Assembly: GCA_903842455.1 (NCBI GenBank)
Contig: CAIMLX010000111.1
Coordinates: 1-34,209, forward strand
DNA: 34,209 nucleotides
Source: an uncultured Hyphomicrobiales bacterium
GTDB taxonomy: Bacteria; Pseudomonadota; Alphaproteobacteria; Rhizobiales; Devosiaceae
Direction of reading: 5' to 3'
Shown one piece after another: positions 13,583 to 31,445 of the stretch. Each line of letters starts with the position of its first letter. Within the stretch, counting starts at the first letter, position 1. The position numbers and the translations under genes were made by a program. A model generated the notes under the pieces. That model searched no databases, was not told where the DNA came from, and was given only the letters and a program-made list of their open reading frames with translations.

Positions 13583-14464
13583 CTACGCGATCGGGTTGGC
13601 ACCCTGCGGTATTATCACGGTGCCCGGCACGGTGAACTGGAACTGTGTGTCCATGCCGCACTCGCCGTAGCGGATGCGGAAGAAACCTCGGTCGCCCCAT
13701 GCAGTGCCCCAGCTGTTCTTGGCGATCCAGCAGGCCAGCGCATCGTCGTAACCGACAAGACAGACCGCATGGTAGCCGGAGAGATTGCCGCTGACGTGGC
13801 GATAGACGCCCGAGCCATAGCTGAAGAAGTCCTCGAACACCGCCATTGCGGCAATAACCGGTCCTCCCATCAGCGCGCGTTTGCGCTCGATGCTGATGGC
13901 GACCGAACGATAGGTGTTGAGCCGTACGACCGGCGAAATCATCCGGCACGCCTGATCGCCGGGTTGGTAGGGAAAATCCGATTCCTTGCCGATACCCTTG
14001 TGGATGGCAAACTCCATCGCCTTGCTCGGCTGCCATCCGGTCGCGCATGAATCGGGAGCACCGCAGTAGAACAGGTGGGCCTCCGACAGGTCGACGTCCG
14101 CGTTCGGCTTGTTCGCCTGGATCAGCAGGCGCGACTCTATGGCGCCGCAGGCCGCAAACGATACGCACGAGCCGCAGTTGCCCTGGTTCTTGACCGAGGT
14201 TACCCAGTTCTTGCCGCTGTAGGAGCGCCAGTCGATCCGCGGCGGCGGAGGCGGCGGCGGGGCTGCCGAGAACTGGATCAGCTGGTCTTCCTGGCGCTGC
14301 TGCTGGAGCTCCGTCAGAGCCTCTTCCGGCGTCAGGGCCAGGCCCATGAAGCTGCCCGGGTCCTGGCTCGCCCGGATATGCGAATACGGCGTCTCGCGGG
14401 CCACCCAGTCGGCGCCGGCCTTCCTGATCTGCTGGTTGAGCGCGTCAATTTGGTCGTCTGCCAT
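13583..14464 (-). CDS. papain-like cysteine protease (C1A family)
   Basis: 293-residue protease with all expected active-site residues: oxyanion Q94 and nucleophile C100 in NQGNCGSCVSFAACGAIES, H232 in SGYHAVCLVGYDD, and N250 in WIAKNSWGTAWGDRGFFRIRYG. The usual Trp after the catalytic Cys is Val101. Residues 1-60 are helical and charged, with DWVARETPYSHI, and could be a short propeptide or regulatory segment. A seven-Pro linker (69-75) joins it to the catalytic domain. There is no signal peptide or Tat motif, so it is probably cytoplasmic, which is unusual for a papain homologue. GGAGG lies 5 nt before the ATG. Its probable inhibitor gene follows 4 nt downstream. Confidence 0.92.
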   Translation of the reverse strand: MADDQIDALNQQIRKAGADWVARETPYSHIRASQDPGSFMGLALTPEEALTELQQQRQEDQLIQFSAAPPPPPPPRIDWRSYSGKNWVTSVKNQGNCGSCVSFAACGAIESRLLIQANKPNADVDLSEAHLFYCGAPDSCATGWQPSKAMEFAIHKGIGKESDFPYQPGDQACRMISPVVRLNTYRSVAISIERKRALMGGPVIAAMAVFEDFFSYGSGVYRHVSGNLSGYHAVCLVGYDDALACWIAKNSWGTAWGDRGFFRIRYGECGMDTQFQFTVPGTVIIPQGANPIA

Positions 14465-22609: not shown

Positions 22610-25600
22610 CTATTTCCCGGCTACGGTCGCTATCGCCGCCGCATAGGTGATGCCGCCGCCGAACGCCACGAGCCCGAGCCGCTGTCCGGGCGTCGTGGTC
22701 TGCAGCGCATCCATCAGCGCCATCGGGATGGTCGATGAGCTGGTATTGCCCATGGTCCGGATGATCGAGTGCGCCGGCCGGCCGGAGCGGCGCGCAATGG
22801 CGTCGATGATCCGCTGGTTGGCCTGGTGCGGCACCATCAGGTCGATGTCATCCATCGAAATTCCCTCGGCGGCGCAGGCACTTGTCAGCGTTGCCGTCAT
22901 GGCGCGAACGGCGTCGGCAAACACCTCGCGGCCGTTCATCTTGATGTAGCCCTCGCCCGCCCGCGGCACGCTCAGCAGCTCGCCCGGCTCCGGCGCCCCC
23001 GCAATCGTCGGCTGCGCATAGGTGAAGAGCGGCGCCCGATCGCCATTGGCTGCCTGCACCAGCGAGGCGGTCGCGGCGTCGGCAAACAGCACGGCGGTGT
23101 TGAAATCGTTCTGGTCGAGCAGCGGGCTCAACACCTCGGACGTCAGCACCAGCACCCGGGCCTGCGGGTGGTTGGTGACATAATCGCGCGCGTTGGCAAG
23201 GGCATAGAGATAGCCCGAGCAGGCGGCGTTGATGTCGTAGGTCGGCAGGCTGGCCCGGGTGCCGTTGGTCATCGCATCGGCAACCCGCGAGGCAAGCGAC
23301 GGCGTGATCACGTCCGGCGTGCCGGTCGCTGCAATCACCAGGTCGATGTCATCGATCGAAAGCTGCTGCTCGTCCAATAGCTTGCGGGTCGCCGCTGCCG
23401 CCAGCGAGAACACCGTCTCGCCCGGCACCACCCAGCGCCGGCTCTCGATGCCCGTCAGCTTGACGATGTCCGCCGCATCGCGCGTCTGCCAGTTGCCCTT
23501 GAGGTCGGCATTGTTGATCTTCCGCCCTCCGGACACCCCGGTAATGCCCGCGACCCCCACCGCCACCGCGGCGCGCCCGCCGATAGCCGGAGCCGCAAGT
23601 ACCTGGCGGCGCTTCAGAATCGCTCTGTCGATGCGCTCGGCCGTCACCGTCGTCTGGCGCTTCAGCGATGCGGGATCAGCCTCGACATAGATCAGTGGCG
23701 CACCGACCGGGACCTTGTCGCGCGGCGCGACCGCGATCGACAGCACCTTGCCGGTCACCGTCGCCTGTACGTCCACCGCGGCCTTCGTCGCCTCGACCAC
23801 GGCCACGAGGTCGCCGGTCTTGATCAGGTCGCCGGGCTTCACCAGCAGTTCGACGATCTCCACCTCGTCATCGGCCGGCCCGGAGCCGATCGCCGCAATC
23901 GCCGTCGGCCCATCCGTAGTCGTCTCGACTTCCCACGCCAGGTCAAAGCCCAGCAGGTCCGCCGCCGCTTCCATGATGCGGCGATAGGAGGGCAGGGTCT
24001 CGATCTGCCGCTCGAAATGGAACGGTACATGGATGTCGTCGCGGGTGATGCGTCGCGCCGCCACCGGTACGCCGGCCTTCTCCATCACCGTCGCCAGCAC
24101 CTCGGCACCGAAGCCAGCGGTGTGGTTATCCTCATGCACGACCAGCAGTTTTCCGGTCCGACGCACTGAGCGGAGCACCGCGTCCTCGTCCCAGGGCGAG
24201 ATCGAGCGGAGGTCGATGACGTCCAGCGACGCACCGGCTTTCGTCAGGGTCTCGTTGGCCAGCAGGCTCTGGGTCAGCGGGTTGCCCCAGGTCACCAGCG
24301 TCAGCTCGTTGCCGCCAACCGCAGTGCGGGCGCGGCCGGGCGCCACGAACTGCTCCGCTGTATCGTCGGAGGTCCGCCGGTCGCCGATATTGAGCAAGCT
24401 CTTGGGGTAGAGGAACACCGTCGGCCGCTGCGACTGGAAGGCGGCGTTCAGCAGCCCCGCCGCGTCGCCGGCTGAAGACGGCATCACCACGTCGATCCCC
24501 GGCACATGCGCCAGGATGGATTCGAAGGTCTGGGCGTGGAACGGCCCCAGCCCGGCCTTGTAGCCGCCGCAGCTGATCATCAGGATCACCGGCGTCTGCC
24601 ACGCGCCATCGGTGCGCCAGTACATCGAGCCCAGCTCGGAGACGATCTGGTTGAAGGCGAGCGGCAGGAAATCGGCGAACTGCAGGAAGGCGACCGGCCG
24701 CTGTCCCGCCAGGGCGCGGCCGATCGAGGTGCCGACGATCGTCGATTCCGATAGCGCCGCGTTGCGCACCCGCCCGGGGAAAGCCGTGGACAGTCCGCGG
24801 GTTACGCCGAACACGTCGCCCTTGGGGTCCTCGATGTCCTGGCCCAGCAGGGTCACGTCGCGGTTGGTGTTCAACTGGTCGCGGAGCACCCGGTTGAGCG
24901 CCTCGCGCATGGTCAGGCTCGGTGCCGCCGGATCACCCCGGTACTCGCGCCGGGTGGCAAACCCGGCAGGATAGGGGGCCTTGGCGGTGCCCGCGGTCGT
25001 GGGAGCCGGCTCGCCGCGGGCCTCGTTCGCGGCGTCGGCGACCTCGGCGATCAGTGCCGTCTCGAGTTGCGTCAGCGCCGTGTCGCCCATTTGCGAGTCG
25101 CGCAGCGCCTGGCGGATGGCCTCCAGCGGGTCGCGCCCGTTGCCCTTCCGGATGTCGTCGGCGGTACGGTAGAGCGACTGGTCATCGGCGTTCGTGTGGT
25201 CGCTGAGCCGCTCGAGGTCCATGAGCAGCAGCGTCGGCGACCGGCCGGCCCGCGTCTCGGTCACGGCGGCCTCGAAGGCTGCGCGGGTGGCGCTGAGGTC
25301 AACGCCATCGACGCGGCGGATGGGCAGACCGAACAGGCTGTCGGCGGGTCCGCCGGGCAGGTCGAAAAAGGTCTGGCCCGGGGTGTGGGTGGAGATCGAC
25401 CAGCGGTTGTTCTGCACCACGAACACCACCGGCGCAGCAGTCCTGACGGCTTCCGCCACCGCCTCGAGGAACTCGCCCTGCTGGGTGGTGCCATCGCCGA
25501 CGCAGCAGATCACCACCGGCGCATCGGGGTGGAATTTCACCGCCTGGGCGTTGCCCACCGCGTGCAGCGCATTGTTGCCCACCGGGCCGACCATCGAGGC

Positions 25601-25927
25601 GACATTCAGGTTCCGCGCCGAAAAATGCGCGCTCATCTGCCGGCCCGCAGAGTGCGACGGCCCGGTCGCCAGCAGGCCGCGGAAGAACTCGACCACCGGC
25701 AGGCCGCGTGCCAGCAGCAGCGCCTTGTCGCGGTAATGCAGGTGCAGCCAGTCCTGCGCGCCGAGGTAATCGGCAACCAGCGCGGTCGATTCGTGGCCGG
25801 CGCCGGAGACATGGAAGTGCGCCAGCCCCTGCTTCACCAGGTCCCGCTCGACGCGATCGATCTCACGGGCGAGAAACATCGCACGGTGGAGCCGCAGCAT
25901 GGTCGGGATGTCTGAGGTCATCAGCAT
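22610..25927 (-). CDS. four-domain fusion: 2-oxoacid dehydrogenase E1-alpha, E1-beta, lipoyl domain and FabH-like ketosynthase III
   Basis: A single 1105-residue open frame. Residues about 5-305 are E1-alpha with the thiamine diphosphate motif VGDGTTQQGEF to QNN (G144-G146, N173-N174) and an HTNADDQSLYR loop. Residues about 335-660 are E1-beta, with ESTIVGTSIGRAL and GPFHAQTFE (H464). Residues about 685-750 are a lipoyl domain with the modifiable K715 in VEATKAAVD. Residues about 785-1105 are a ketosynthase III with the full triad C903 (DINAACSGYLYAL), H1034 (VPHQANQR) and N1061 (MGNTSSSTIP). No E2 acyltransferase or E3-binding domain is present. Inferred role: decarboxylate a 2-oxoacid, load the acyl on the lipoyl arm and condense it, perhaps with malonyl-ACP. 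The start could be ATG 25927 or 25921; neither has a clear ribosome binding site. Confidence 0.93.
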   Translation of the reverse strand: MLMTSDIPTMLRLHRAMFLAREIDRVERDLVKQGLAHFHVSGAGHESTALVADYLGAQDWLHLHYRDKALLLARGLPVVEFFRGLLATGPSHSAGRQMSAHFSARNLNVASMVGPVGNNALHAVGNAQAVKFHPDAPVVICCVGDGTTQQGEFLEAVAEAVRTAAPVVFVVQNNRWSISTHTPGQTFFDLPGGPADSLFGLPIRRVDGVDLSATRAAFEAAVTETRAGRSPTLLLMDLERLSDHTNADDQSLYRTADDIRKGNGRDPLEAIRQALRDSQMGDTALTQLETALIAEVADAANEARGEPAPTTAGTAKAPYPAGFATRREYRGDPAAPSLTMREALNRVLRDQLNTNRDVTLLGQDIEDPKGDVFGVTRGLSTAFPGRVRNAALSESTIVGTSIGRALAGQRPVAFLQFADFLPLAFNQIVSELGSMYWRTDGAWQTPVILMISCGGYKAGLGPFHAQTFESILAHVPGIDVVMPSSAGDAAGLLNAAFQSQRPTVFLYPKSLLNIGDRRTSDDTAEQFVAPGRARTAVGGNELTLVTWGNPLTQSLLANETLTKAGASLDVIDLRSISPWDEDAVLRSVRRTGKLLVVHEDNHTAGFGAEVLATVMEKAGVPVAARRITRDDIHVPFHFERQIETLPSYRRIMEAAADLLGFDLAWEVETTTDGPTAIAAIGSGPADDEVEIVELLVKPGDLIKTGDLVAVVEATKAAVDVQATVTGKVLSIAVAPRDKVPVGAPLIYVEADPASLKRQTTVTAERIDRAILKRRQVLAAPAIGGRAAVAVGVAGITGVSGGRKINNADLKGNWQTRDAADIVKLTGIESRRWVVPGETVFSLAAAATRKLLDEQQLSIDDIDLVIAATGTPDVITPSLASRVADAMTNGTRASLPTYDINAACSGYLYALANARDYVTNHPQARVLVLTSEVLSPLLDQNDFNTAVLFADAATASLVQAANGDRAPLFTYAQPTIAGAPEPGELLSVPRAGEGYIKMNGREVFADAVRAMTATLTSACAAEGISMDDIDLMVPHQANQRIIDAIARRSGRPAHSIIRTMGNTSSSTIPMALMDALQTTTPGQRLGLVAFGGGITYAAAIATVAGK

Positions 25928-27926: not shown

Positions 27927-30900
27927 GTGGCAAACCGGGTCGTCTCAAGTCGGAAAGCAGTGAAACCTACACCAGCTCCTGGCCACAAGCTCCGCAAGCG
28001 CTCGGCATGGCGCGCCCTGGGTAGGATAACCGCAGCAGCGGTGGCGGCACCCGTCGTGCTGCTGGCGCTGCTGTATGCGGTGCTGATCGTCACCCCCATC
28101 CCGCTGCCCTTTGTTTCCTCCCAGGTGCGGAACGTCGTCCTCAGCATGATGCCGGAGGGCAGCAAGCTCGAGCTCGGCGACATGGCCCTGGCGCTCGAGG
28201 GATATGTCTGGCCCGTCATCCGGTTCTCGCCAGTTACCTTCACCGACGTGAAGACCGGCGGCACTGTCAGCATGGACGCGCTCGAAGTGGGCTTCTCGCC
28301 GATCCGCGCGGTGGTGGGGCAGCCAGGCGCCACCATCACCATTGTCGGCCCGCACCTTCAGGTGAACCAGGATCTGTTCGGACCGCGGCTGGCCAAGTTC
28401 GAGCTTGTGGACGAGGCGGACGGCAGCCGCACCGTGAGGGTCATCGAGGGCGAAGACCAGTTCCCCGAACTCGACATCTCGGCCAACGGCATGGACGTTC
28501 GCGGGGTGGTTCCAGACCCCAAGCTCGGCATCCGTTCCGACAATGACTGGCTGGTCTACAACATGGAGGCCGCCGGCAACGGCATAGCCGGCATCATCGC
28601 GCAGGCCAAAGCGGGCAGCTTCTCCAAGCTCGTCGTGCGCGGCGGCACGCTCGACATGAATGACGCGCTCTACGGCGTCTTCCGAACCTTCAAGGACATC
28701 AATCTCGAGATTGCGCCGAGCCCCGATGCGCGCGCCGCCTCCGGCAAGTTCTCGGTCGATTTCGGCGGCACGGTCATGAACGGCAGCGTCGACTGGGTCA
28801 GCAAGGACAGCGATCCGGTCGCGCGTATCCAGGCCTCGATCACCAATTTCGATCCGGGCGCCTTCTCGCCGATGGTCGGCGACAAGTCGGCGCCGGCTAC
28901 GGCGGTCGGCACCATGGCGGTCTCGATGGATATCGGGTTCGACACAGCCGCCAAAAAGGTGACGGACGGTCTGTTCCACATGGACCTGACGGGCATGGAC
29001 GTGAAGCTGCCCGACAACACCTACATCCCCATAGCGACGTCGATCGCTGCGGTGACGTGGGATCCGGTGGCCGGGCAGTTCACCATGGACGAGACCACCG
29101 TCAGCATCGGCACCAACACCGCCGTCGTCAGCGGCACCTTCGTGCTCGGCCTCGACCCGCAATATGGCCCGACTGTCAGCATCGCGGTGACCGGCCATGA
29201 CATTTCGCTGACGTCCGACCTGGGGCCGCCGGAACAGCCGTTCGACGAGATGAGTCTCGTCGCCTGGTCGGCGCCGCTCTACGGGGCGATGGGTATCGAC
29301 GATTTCCAGATCAAGAAGGACGATGGGAGCATCATCGCCGCCAAGGGCCGCATCGACATGCTGCTCGATGGCATCGGCTTCAAGATGGACATCGTCGGTG
29401 ACGGGATCAGCGCGGACGACCTGAAGCGGGTCTGGCCACCGATCATGGCGACAGATGCCCGGGACTGGTTCGTCAAGAACGTCAGCTCCGGCAAGCTGCG
29501 GAAGTCGGTGATGCGGTACAACATTCCGGTCGGCGCGATCAACGCGACCGGGGGGGAGAGCCAGCCTCTGCCGCCCGGATCGATGTCCATCGACATCGTC
29601 GGCGAAGGGGTCACCGTCAAGCTCACCGACACGATGCAGCCCGTGACCCTCGATGGCGAGACACGCCTGACGCTGCGCGACGATGACGTCACCATGTCGG
29701 CGACGGGGGCCTCCATTCCGACGCCCAAGGGGGCGATCGGACTTGCCAACGTGGCGTTCGTCATCAACTCCGATCCAGCCGCGCCCGAAGACGTGATCTA
29801 TGAGATCTCCGGCGACCTCGCGAGCGGCATCCCGGCCATGCTCGACCTGGCCAAAACGCAGCAACCGGACATGCTGAAGGCCGAGACGCTGCCGATCGAC
29901 ATCAACGGGCTGACGGGCACCGTCTCGCTTTCCCTCGTGGCGACGATCGTCAACGACAAGGTGACGGGCGCCAACAAGCGGCTCGACTACGCGATCAACG
30001 GCATCGTGCAGGATTTCGGCTCCACCGTGCCGCTGCAGGGGCGGACGATCGGCGATGGCCAACTGAGCTTCGTGGCCTCGCAGGCGGGCTACAAGGTGAC
30101 CGGGCAGGCTGCGATCGACGGTATCTCCGCAGATGTGGCGATCGACGGCAAGCTCGAAAAAGACGCTCCGCCGCCCAACATGCTGATCAGCGCCACCTTC
30201 GACAACGACGATCTCAAGAAGGTCGGGTTCGACGCTTCGGAGTTCTTTTCTGGTTCGGTCAAGGTCGTGGCGCGTCCGATGCCGGACGGCACCATCCAGG
30301 TCGCGGCCGATCTCGACAATGCGTCGATCACCATCAAGGACCTCGGAATCAGCAAGGCAAAGGGTGTCTCGGGCTCGGCCAAGGCAGCCATCAAGCTTGA
30401 TGGCGAGACCGCCGAGGTGAGCCAGATCGAAGTCGGCTTCGGGACGCTATCACTGCGTGGCAACGTCACCGCCGACCTCAAGAAGGGACTGCAGCAGGCC
30501 CAGTTCACGCATTTCGCGATTTCCGACGGCGACAGCGCGCAGTTCAACCTCAAGCCGATCGATGGCGGTTACCAGCTGACGCTGCGCGGCGACCAGCTCG
30601 ACCTCAAGCCCATGCTGCAGCGGTTCTTCAGCCTGTCCGGCGAGTCCACCGGAGGGCCGACGGCCACTGCAGTGAACACCACCATTGTCGCCGATGTCGA
30701 GCTGAAGCGCGCGCTGGGATTCTACAAGACGACGGCCTTCAACCTGAACCTCGACCTGTCGCTGCGGGGGGCGGACCTTCGGCGGGTGAACCTCCAGGCA
30801 AACCTCGGCGGCGATCGCAGCGTCTCTGTCACCACGAACCCGACCCCTGACGGCAAGGTGATGTCCGTTGCGTTCAATGACCTGGGCGCGCTGCTGCGGT

Positions 30901-31445
30901 TGATGAACATCTACCCCAACGTCGAGGGCGGAGAGGGCAGCCTGGTGGTCGAGACGGTCGATGCGCAGAAGCTCGACAGCGGTCAGTTCGTGCTCAGGAA
31001 CTTTGCCTTCGTCAATGAGCAGAACGTCAGCCGGATCATGGGCAACCACCGTGATTCCGAGCAGATGGTGGCGCGGTCGGGCAAGCTGGAATTCCGCTCC
31101 GGCGAGGTCGATTTCATCCGGCGCAAGGATCGGGTCGAGATCACCGACGGGGTGCTGGCCGGCGACACCGTCGGCGGCACGGCCCGGGGCTTCATCTACA
31201 CGGACCGGCGGCAATACGACCTTACCGGCACGTATGTCCCCCTGTTTGGCCTCAACAACGCCTTCTCCAAGCTGCTGGGGCCTCTCGCGGGACGGGACGG
31301 CGAGGGGTTGTTCGGGGTGACCTTCGCAATCAAGGGGCCGCTCGACAAGCCGGATTTCAAGATCAACCCGATGTCCGCCCTCGTGCCGGGCGCCTTCCGG
31401 CGCATGTTCGAGTACCGCTCCAAGGAAATCCCGCGCGTCGAGTAG
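27927..31445 (+). CDS. DUF3971 / AsmA-like large envelope protein
   Basis: 1172-residue protein with a basic N-terminus, one transmembrane helix (about 34-55) and a very long periplasmic beta-rich region. The DUF3971-type central region and the C-terminal AsmA-like block (YDLTGTYVPLFGLNNAFSKL, then GPLDKPDFKINPMSALVPGAFRRMFE) match the YhdP/AsmA-like superfamily, members of which form lipid-conducting bridges between inner and outer membranes. A role in phospholipid transport is inferred from the family. The start is GTG 27927; no ATG lies nearby, and an in-frame TAG stops any upstream extension. A perfect 10-bp palindrome, ATTCTAGAAT (27914-27923), ends 3 nt before it. Confidence 0.88.
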   Translation: MANRVVSSRKAVKPTPAPGHKLRKRSAWRALGRITAAAVAAPVVLLALLYAVLIVTPIPLPFVSSQVRNVVLSMMPEGSKLELGDMALALEGYVWPVIRFSPVTFTDVKTGGTVSMDALEVGFSPIRAVVGQPGATITIVGPHLQVNQDLFGPRLAKFELVDEADGSRTVRVIEGEDQFPELDISANGMDVRGVVPDPKLGIRSDNDWLVYNMEAAGNGIAGIIAQAKAGSFSKLVVRGGTLDMNDALYGVFRTFKDINLEIAPSPDARAASGKFSVDFGGTVMNGSVDWVSKDSDPVARIQASITNFDPGAFSPMVGDKSAPATAVGTMAVSMDIGFDTAAKKVTDGLFHMDLTGMDVKLPDNTYIPIATSIAAVTWDPVAGQFTMDETTVSIGTNTAVVSGTFVLGLDPQYGPTVSIAVTGHDISLTSDLGPPEQPFDEMSLVAWSAPLYGAMGIDDFQIKKDDGSIIAAKGRIDMLLDGIGFKMDIVGDGISADDLKRVWPPIMATDARDWFVKNVSSGKLRKSVMRYNIPVGAINATGGESQPLPPGSMSIDIVGEGVTVKLTDTMQPVTLDGETRLTLRDDDVTMSATGASIPTPKGAIGLANVAFVINSDPAAPEDVIYEISGDLASGIPAMLDLAKTQQPDMLKAETLPIDINGLTGTVSLSLVATIVNDKVTGANKRLDYAINGIVQDFGSTVPLQGRTIGDGQLSFVASQAGYKVTGQAAIDGISADVAIDGKLEKDAPPPNMLISATFDNDDLKKVGFDASEFFSGSVKVVARPMPDGTIQVAADLDNASITIKDLGISKAKGVSGSAKAAIKLDGETAEVSQIEVGFGTLSLRGNVTADLKKGLQQAQFTHFAISDGDSAQFNLKPIDGGYQLTLRGDQLDLKPMLQRFFSLSGESTGGPTATAVNTTIVADVELKRALGFYKTTAFNLNLDLSLRGADLRRVNLQANLGGDRSVSVTTNPTPDGKVMSVAFNDLGALLRLMNIYPNVEGGEGSLVVETVDAQKLDSGQFVLRNFAFVNEQNVSRIMGNHRDSEQMVARSGKLEFRSGEVDFIRRKDRVEITDGVLAGDTVGGTARGFIYTDRRQYDLTGTYVPLFGLNNAFSKLLGPLAGRDGEGLFGVTFAIKGPLDKPDFKINPMSALVPGAFRRMFEYRSKEIPRVE

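Follow-up and report, generated by a model that had tools for sequence, protein, structure and literature searches.

The 34,209-nucleotide stretch analysed here (the window: contig CAIMLX010000111.1 of assembly GCA_903842455.1, from an uncultured Hyphomicrobiales bacterium of the Devosiaceae) carries on its minus strand a gene that begins with ATG, contains no internal stop codon and encodes a single protein, P0001, in which the two parts of a 2-oxoacid dehydrogenase E1, a lipoyl domain and a ketosynthase III (KASIII) follow one another. A preliminary description of the locus, which named no strand, had given this order of domains together with the positions of the thiamine motif, the lipoyl lysine and the three ketosynthase catalytic residues, and both the Pfam matches and the translation agree with it. 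The features of the gene are listed below.

22610..25927, minus strand: fusion gene E1-alpha/E1-beta/lipoyl/KASIII (P0001), 1105 amino acids (translation and Pfam; same architecture at 50 of 56 loci)
24998..25885, minus strand: E1-alpha domain, binding the pyrophosphate of thiamine diphosphate (ThDP), residues 15-310, with GDG at 144-146 and N174 (PF00676)
24389..24916, minus strand: E1-beta pyrimidine-binding domain, residues 338-513, including E394 and H464, both present in all 80 fusions (PF02779)
24011..24337, minus strand: E1-beta C-terminal domain, residues 531-639 (PF02780)
23657..23890, minus strand: lipoyl domain, residues 680-757 (PF00364 at residues 687-747)
23783..23785, minus strand: K715, the predicted lipoylated lysine, in E-A-T-K-A (K in 80 of 80 fusions)
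23552..23656, minus strand: linker between lipoyl domain and KASIII, residues 758-792, including stretches with a predicted local distance difference test score (pLDDT) below 50 in the AlphaFold model
22622..23551, minus strand: KASIII domain, residues 793-1102 (PF08545, PF08541; matches FabH structures)
23219..23221, minus strand: C903, KASIII nucleophile (C in 80 of 80 fusions)
22826..22828, minus strand: H1034, KASIII catalytic His (H in 80 of 80 fusions)
22745..22747, minus strand: N1061, KASIII catalytic Asn (N in 80 of 80 fusions)
23468..23470, minus strand: D820, at the position of FabH Trp32 in the clamp for the adenine of coenzyme A (CoA), lost (W in 26 of 26 non-fused KASIII, 0 of 79 fusions)
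23102..23104, minus strand: F942, at the position of FabH Arg151 in the same clamp, lost (R in 26 of 26 non-fused KASIII, 0 of 79 fusions)

The Pfam matches in P0001 cover the E1 part (E1_dh, residues 15-310, E-value 1.4e-41; Transket_pyr, 338-513, 2e-24; Transketolase_C, 531-639, 3.7e-25) and the remainder of the chain (Biotin_lipoyl, 687-747, 3.7e-11; ACP_syn_III, 897-967, 3.9e-19; ACP_syn_III_C, 1018-1100, 9.6e-23). All six families are present in 21 of the 22 members of an alignment of the fusion, the exception (L059) being truncated by a contig end. The same scan gave no match in P0001 to the E2 acyltransferase (2-oxoacid_dh, PF00198) or to an E3-binding (peripheral-subunit-binding) domain, and none of the 16 Pfam families listed for the 22 aligned members is E2 catalytic or E3-binding; the absence of both parts, which had been remarked on for the window, thus holds for the aligned relatives as well. 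Among the 25 NCBIfam models listed, of 35 matched, none reaches its own cut-off (242.4 bits against 249 for PRK09352, the best; 214.8 against 292.1 for fabH, TIGR00747; 183.5 against 411.35 for a pyruvate dehydrogenase (PDH) E1-alpha model). The lipoyl domain has as its top PDB match a PDH E2 chain with lipoyl domains (1.6e-17). An AlphaFold model of P0001 built with 22 sequences and of moderate quality (mean pLDDT 78.9, predicted template modelling score 0.64) was used for a fold search only, and a PADLOC search returned no match. The protein therefore combines the traits of a 2-oxoacid dehydrogenase (the GDG...N ThDP motif, the Glu and His of E1-beta and a lipoyl domain with a predicted modifiable Lys) with those of a KASIII, a thiolase-type fold with a Cys-His-Asn triad.

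Conservation, distribution and descent

Relatives were collected by a similarity scan of GTDB species genomes, from which 56 loci were fetched. Fifty of these contain the fusion as a single uninterrupted frame, including one (L011) that starts at a contig edge and is without its first 26 residues; the other six comprise four copies truncated by contig ends (L059, L061, L062 and L063), one copy with a frame break (L042) and one false positive (L064), rejected as a fusion because its KASIII and its Biotin_lipoyl-family carrier are two separate genes. The frame break, in a copy from a Devosia metagenome-assembled genome (MAG; L042/L076, = G007), lies within the KASIII part, and the rest of that frame is open. 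The architecture recurs in many genera. The preliminary description had named separate E1 and KASIII genes in relatives as an observation that would count against it, and in none of the relatives examined are an E1 of this clade and the KASIII belonging to it found as separate intact genes; the exceptions to an intact single gene are the MAG copy just mentioned and a few copies split by contig ends.

Simple estimates of the ratio of nonsynonymous to synonymous substitution rates, made for the window gene against nine relatives, range from 0.03 to 0.24 in each of the four domains, and purifying selection acts on all four. An assembly or frameshift artefact is rejected on these two grounds, the open frame at 50 of 56 loci and the selection on every domain: the fusion is far beyond chance.

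Residue conservation was counted in 80 distinct full fusions, the window included. K715, C903, H1034, N1061, G144, N174, E394 and H464 are invariant, while D145 is Asp in 78 and Glu in two, and G146 is Gly in 79. K715 is preceded by T, D, E, N or S and followed by A or S, with Met at neither position in any of the 80; E712 and the mostly conserved A716 fit a lipoyl site and not a biotin site. Biotinylation sites have a Met-Lys-Met-like motif, and a biotin carboxyl carrier in place of the lipoyl domain was rejected for lack of any flanking Met. Between fixed points the linker from E1 to the lipoyl domain is nearly constant at 30-32 residues, and that from the lipoyl domain to KASIII varies from 38 to 67.

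Full fusions occur in Devosia, Rhizobium (many in R. tropici, R. rhizogenes, R. lusitanum and their kin), Tabrizicola/Rhodobacter, Xenococcus, Verrucomicrobia and Pirellulaceae, the closest named relatives being those of Devosia (a Devosia equisanguinis MAG at 96%). Within the window's own family 13 of 136 genomes have the fusion, all of them in the window's genus, where it is present in 13 of 19 genomes if the window and one frame-broken copy are counted. Samples of the class and of the Rhizobiaceae yielded only the window itself (1 of 337 genomes) and the seed alone (1 of 199), respectively. Elsewhere the counts are 27 of 288 genomes in Verrucomicrobiota (seed included, with two more in contig pieces), 3 of 246 in Planctomycetota (seed included) and 1 of 244 in Cyanobacteriota (the seed alone). 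None of the 68 Hydrogenedentota genomes has the fusion on one contig, and two of them (G405 and G406) have contig-end fragments (L062, L063 and a second piece in G405) that are likely to belong to one. The fusion is rare yet scattered across at least four phyla. Hydrogenedentota have E1 proteins about 40% identical, which in the three read closely (L205, L206 and L208) are followed by an ordinary lipoyl-E2 gene rather than KASIII. No Verrucomicrobiota genome in the sample showed both a KASIII fusion and an E2 fusion; this result is given no weight, since scoring covered only two candidates in each genome and chance alone would by estimate give an overlap of about two genomes. The contig L016, labelled Rhizobium cauense HU25, has a Devosia-type copy at 79% identity that clusters with the Devosia copies in the E1 tree; transfer, misnaming or contamination would each account for it.

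To place the architecture in an evolutionary context we built a tree of E1 parts from 87 sequences, with Rhizobium thinned to six and with 57 fusions that include the incomplete copies L042, L059 and L121. All 57 are separated from the other sequences by a split with support 1.0. Adjoining them are five one-chain proteins of Planctomycetota (L133-L137), the split that joins both groups having support 0.982; their sister status assumes a root outside the two groups, as placed by midpoint rooting and by an outgroup of other E1 proteins. The four of these five that were scanned are E1-lipoyl-2-oxoacid_dh proteins without an E3-binding domain. The KASIII parts of the fusions are likewise split from 21 FabH sequences with support 1.0. 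Since the sister of the E1 part is a one-chain E1-lipoyl-E2 protein, the KASIII sits in place of the E2 catalytic domain in a shared frame, and the best explanation of the tree would be that KASIII took the place of the E2 acyltransferase in evolution. The Devosia and Rhizobium copies cluster together (support 1.0), and the alphaproteobacterial copies taken together form no clade, which makes transfer of the fusion between phyla likely.

One-chain proteins of the order E1-alpha/E1-beta/lipoyl/E2 catalytic domain are found not only in Planctomycetota (L133-L137) but also in Verrucomicrobiota (L123), and an E3-binding domain is absent from the five scanned (all except L136). Where their sequences were inspected, the E2 motif reads HxxxNG; the usual motif is HxxxDG.

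Coenzyme A site of the ketosynthase and the proposed reaction

In FabH the adenine of CoA is held between Trp32 and Arg151, and Arg36 touches the pantetheine (PMC4606726). We compared these positions in 79 distinct fusions and in 26 non-fused KASIII proteins, namely 20 FabH-like loci from the same or related genomes, a Thermus thermophilus FabH chain, three BioZ proteins from biotin operons, one Streptomyces protein and one Sphingomonas protein. Both residues of the adenine clamp are present in all 26 and in none of the fusions. Of 33 columns that are invariant in the 26 proteins, 21 persist in at least 95% of the fusions, and four (Trp32, Arg151, an Ala and a Gly) are absent from every one of the 79. 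BioZ, for which the title of a PDB entry names bound glutaryl-CoA, keeps Trp32, Arg36 and Arg151 in all three proteins compared; divergence alone therefore does not remove them.

Arg249, which we take to be the residue of FabH on which acyl carrier protein (ACP) docks, is retained in 79 of 79 fusions, and together with the catalytic Cys, His and Asn, present in every fusion, it speaks for a KASIII that condenses and against a dead one. The His/Asn pair is needed by KASIII enzymes for malonyl decarboxylation. Loss of the clamp with Arg249 kept would be expected if the donor were no longer CoA and the acceptor still ACP, and, judging from this pattern, the ketosynthase most likely receives its acyl group from the lipoyl arm rather than from CoA.

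As for the 2-oxoacid, the E1-alpha part scores best against the branched-chain E1 of T. thermophilus (137.6 bits), followed at nearly equal scores by human branched-chain 2-oxoacid dehydrogenase (BCKDH; 92.5) and a bacterial PDH (90.4). A GRxM loop, seen in both branched-chain chains compared, is found in 75 of the 80 fusions (GRQM in 56, the window gene among them, and another GRxM in 19), the remaining five having GRQL (two) or an unmatched loop pattern (three); the PDH-like E1-alpha of the same genome has GKGGSMH at this loop. The likeness of E1-alpha and the loop lean toward branched-chain acids and are not decisive, and a branched-chain type of substrate is thus a first guess, held with real doubt.

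We consider it probable, with due reserve, that the protein is a self-contained enzyme which uses a 2-oxoacid to initiate an acyl chain and does so without acyl-CoA. Its E1 part would decarboxylate a 2-oxoacid, most likely of branched-chain type, on ThDP and reductively acylate the lipoyl group presumed to be carried by K715; the arm would then swing to KASIII and the acyl group pass to C903; KASIII would form 3-oxoacyl-ACP by condensing this group with a malonyl carrier that is probably malonyl-ACP; and a separate lipoamide dehydrogenase (E3) would reoxidise the arm. Two loci of the genome score above the TIGR01350 cut-off for E3, and a lipoyl synthase (LipA) gene is present elsewhere in the genome. 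The enzyme is probably homodimeric. In its more general form, to which we give a shade less assurance, the proposal is that lipoamide replaces CoA as acyl donor of a ketosynthase and KASIII has replaced E2, so that 2-oxoacids would be turned into 3-oxoacyl-ACP starters and part of initiation would be CoA-free.

Gene neighbourhood and competing interpretations

The host genome (4.56 Mb in 280 contigs) was searched with P0001. Contig C213 has an E1-alpha/E1-beta pair of PDH-like type with a lipoyl match, C141 has another one-chain E1 adjoining a lipoyl-bearing frame, and C84 has the one other KASIII found, a FabH-like protein; the fusion is therefore an additional enzyme and not the sole E1 or KASIII of the cell. 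In the window the gene appears to stand alone: an M23 peptidase gene lies 107 bases upstream in the same orientation, with a peroxiredoxin beyond it, and downstream is recA on the opposite strand. Clustering of the neighbours of 33 fusion loci (34 were submitted, L184 being dropped in frame selection) gave no operon conserved across lineages, and such an operon was rejected. The recurrent neighbours are lineage-local, and they hint at lipids. In Rhizobium lusitanum (L019) a gene for OlsE, an ornithine-lipid hydroxylase (559.8 bits against a cut-off of 475), lies 220 bases upstream of the fusion, and a related gene occupies the same upstream place in three other Rhizobium loci (L026, L039 and L041; 220-296 bases, same strand), the family scan covering L019 only. 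An enoyl-ACP-reductase-like gene adjoins the Tabrizicola copy and a FabF-like gene one planctomycete copy, both identified by reading the sequence. In a Xenococcus MAG (L128:319-7657) the fusion has as neighbours a gene of the Glu-dehydrogenase family (a possible source of a 2-oxoacid), a second KASIII and a 409-residue gene without a Pfam match; this region is possibly a biosynthetic cluster.

Several of these observations weigh against the proposed route. A KASIII that has lost the CoA clamp need not use the lipoyl arm: the comparison covers the FabH and BioZ types, not PqsD, and the KASIII next to the Xenococcus fusion, which was excluded from the 26, is also without Trp32 and Arg151. The pantetheine contact Arg36, present in 26 of 26 non-fused proteins, is lost in 51 of the 79 fusions and still present in 28. 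All 80 fusions have His at position 64 of the E1 pocket, where the genome's PDH-like E1 has Gly, human BCKDH Gln and the Thermus protein Tyr; H64 matches neither PDH nor BCKDH. Devosia and the Rhizobium tropici group have, we presume, mostly straight-chain fatty acids, a poor fit to bulk branched-chain synthesis, and the product could be a minor lipid or the substrate a different 2-oxoacid. Finally, no conserved fatty-acid operon and no neighbour common to different lineages was found around the 33 clustered loci. The interpretation offered in the preliminary description, with its bypass of acyl-CoA, thus stands in part: its main predictions at the level of sequence (anatomy, missing parts and the test for an artefact) hold, and the bypass gains independent support from the loss of the clamp throughout with triad and Arg249 kept, but rivals retain some room because of H64, the partial retention of Arg36 and the lack of operon context.

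It is unlikely, though deserving of attention, that the handover from lipoyl to ketosynthase takes place and the acceptor is not malonyl-ACP but a 3-oxoacyl chain, an amine or an alcohol, the product being a ketone, an ester or a signal lipid. Such an acceptor would suit the want of shared neighbours, fatty-acid genes included, the upstream gene kind common to the four Rhizobium loci (a lipid-modification gene in the one scanned) and the company of a KASIII and an uncharacterised gene in Xenococcus, and KASIII relatives do use varied acceptors; it is hard to square with the invariance of Arg249, presumably for ACP docking, and of the decarboxylating His/Asn pair. We see a rather small chance that KASIII substitutes for E2 simply as an acyltransferase, moving the acyl group from lipoyl to ACP with no condensation. 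The position of KASIII where the sister protein has its E2 catalytic domain is consistent with this, as is the occurrence of related E1 proteins next to lipoyl-E2-ACP-ketosynthase modules in which E2 presumably loads ACP, but the full triad is kept in 80 of 80 fusions and KASIII proteins of acyltransferase type often alter it.

Somewhat more doubtful again is the notion that the fusion merely co-localises two ordinary activities, with E1-lipoyl serving an E2 in trans and KASIII using the resulting acyl-CoA. E2 proteins are probably available, given the E1 genes with lipoyl matches on C213 and C141, and channelling is frequent in fused enzymes; the loss of the adenine clamp in all 79 fusions and its retention in all 26 comparison proteins, CoA-using BioZ among them, speak against it, as does a fused lipoyl domain with no E2 after it. 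Very improbable, in our judgement, is an E1 that uses 2-oxoadipate or 2-oxoglutarate to give a dicarboxylic 3-oxoacyl-ACP such as the 3-oxopimeloyl-ACP of biotin synthesis, as a CoA-free analogue of BioZ. The unusual invariant H64 would accord with such a substrate, and the P0001 search, which found only the FabH-like KASIII on C84, revealed no stand-alone BioZ within its reach. However, no biotin genes were noticed among the window frames and neighbours read, no family search having been aimed at them, and KASIII proteins of about 36% identity are encoded on other Rhizobium plasmids, one of them in a biotin operon of R. etli, so that Rhizobium may not need the fusion for this purpose.

Relation to known systems and other features of the window

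T. thermophilus E1b (1um9) and human BCKDH (1dtw) are among the best PDB matches of the fusion, which shares with 2-oxoacid dehydrogenase complexes the E1-alpha and E1-beta folds, the ThDP motif and the lipoyl Lys and differs from them in being one chain with a ketosynthase instead of the E2 acyltransferase and peripheral-subunit-binding domain. With FabH it has in common the fold, the Cys/His/Asn triad and Arg249, whereas it is without Trp32 and Arg151, falls below the NCBIfam fabH cut-off and is joined to its presumed acyl donor. BioZ, the 3-oxopimeloyl-ACP synthase, is also a KASIII for an unusual starter, but it is a stand-alone protein that keeps the CoA clamp. The planctomycete one-chain proteins L133-L137 have the same order of domains through the lipoyl domain and, like the fusion, no E3-binding domain in the four scanned; their C-terminal domain is a 2-oxoacid_dh acyltransferase and that of the fusion is KASIII.

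A further parallel is provided by loci L124:1-6266, L191, L192 and L193 (Streptomyces plasmids), in which a one-chain E1-alpha/beta gene lies directly before a polyketide synthase (PKS)/nonribosomal peptide synthetase gene that starts with lipoyl, E2 catalytic, ACP and ketosynthase domains, an arrangement that looks like a 2-oxoacid dehydrogenase serving as a PKS loading module. As proposed for the fusion, the acyl group derived from a 2-oxoacid presumably goes from lipoyl to a condensing system on site. Those systems, in contrast, are made of two proteins, their ketosynthase is of the ketoacyl-synt (FabF/PKS) type, and the E2 and ACP domains that stand between lipoyl domain and ketosynthase, a trait of the loading module, are absent in the fusion.

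In textbook bacterial fatty-acid initiation, free acyl-CoA is made by one complex and consumed by another. Branched-chain initiation of the Bacillus/Streptomyces type proceeds by the Bkd complex and then FabH, as separate proteins with a free acyl-CoA intermediate; the overall conversion of 2-oxoacid to 3-oxoacyl-ACP would be the same, and the fusion differs in its single chain and in that no free acyl-CoA is proposed. Each half of the fusion is a known enzyme, and what would be new is the direct coupling of lipoyl to ketosynthase. No description of such a fusion enzyme was found by searches aimed at it in the openly accessible literature, in keeping with the remark in the preliminary description that none was known; subscription journals and preprints were outside the scope of the search, and one may exist there. 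If the proposed route is correct, a lipoyl arm tethered to the protein would serve as carrier, and a single chain of about 1100 residues would take a 2-oxoacid all the way to 3-oxoacyl-ACP; lipoamide would acquire a new function, that of direct donor in carbon-carbon bond formation, E1 and not the CoA pool would set the choice of starter, and the gene would offer a single-gene part for producing branched or unusual starters.

Two further genes of the window deserve mention. At 13583-14464 (minus strand) there is, in a bacterial genome, a papain-family cysteine protease (Peptidase_C1, 4.4e-46). At 27927-31445 (plus strand) a protein of 1172 amino acids is encoded that has no Pfam match, and three Devosia-type loci (L012, L014 and L018) have related frames close to the fusion.

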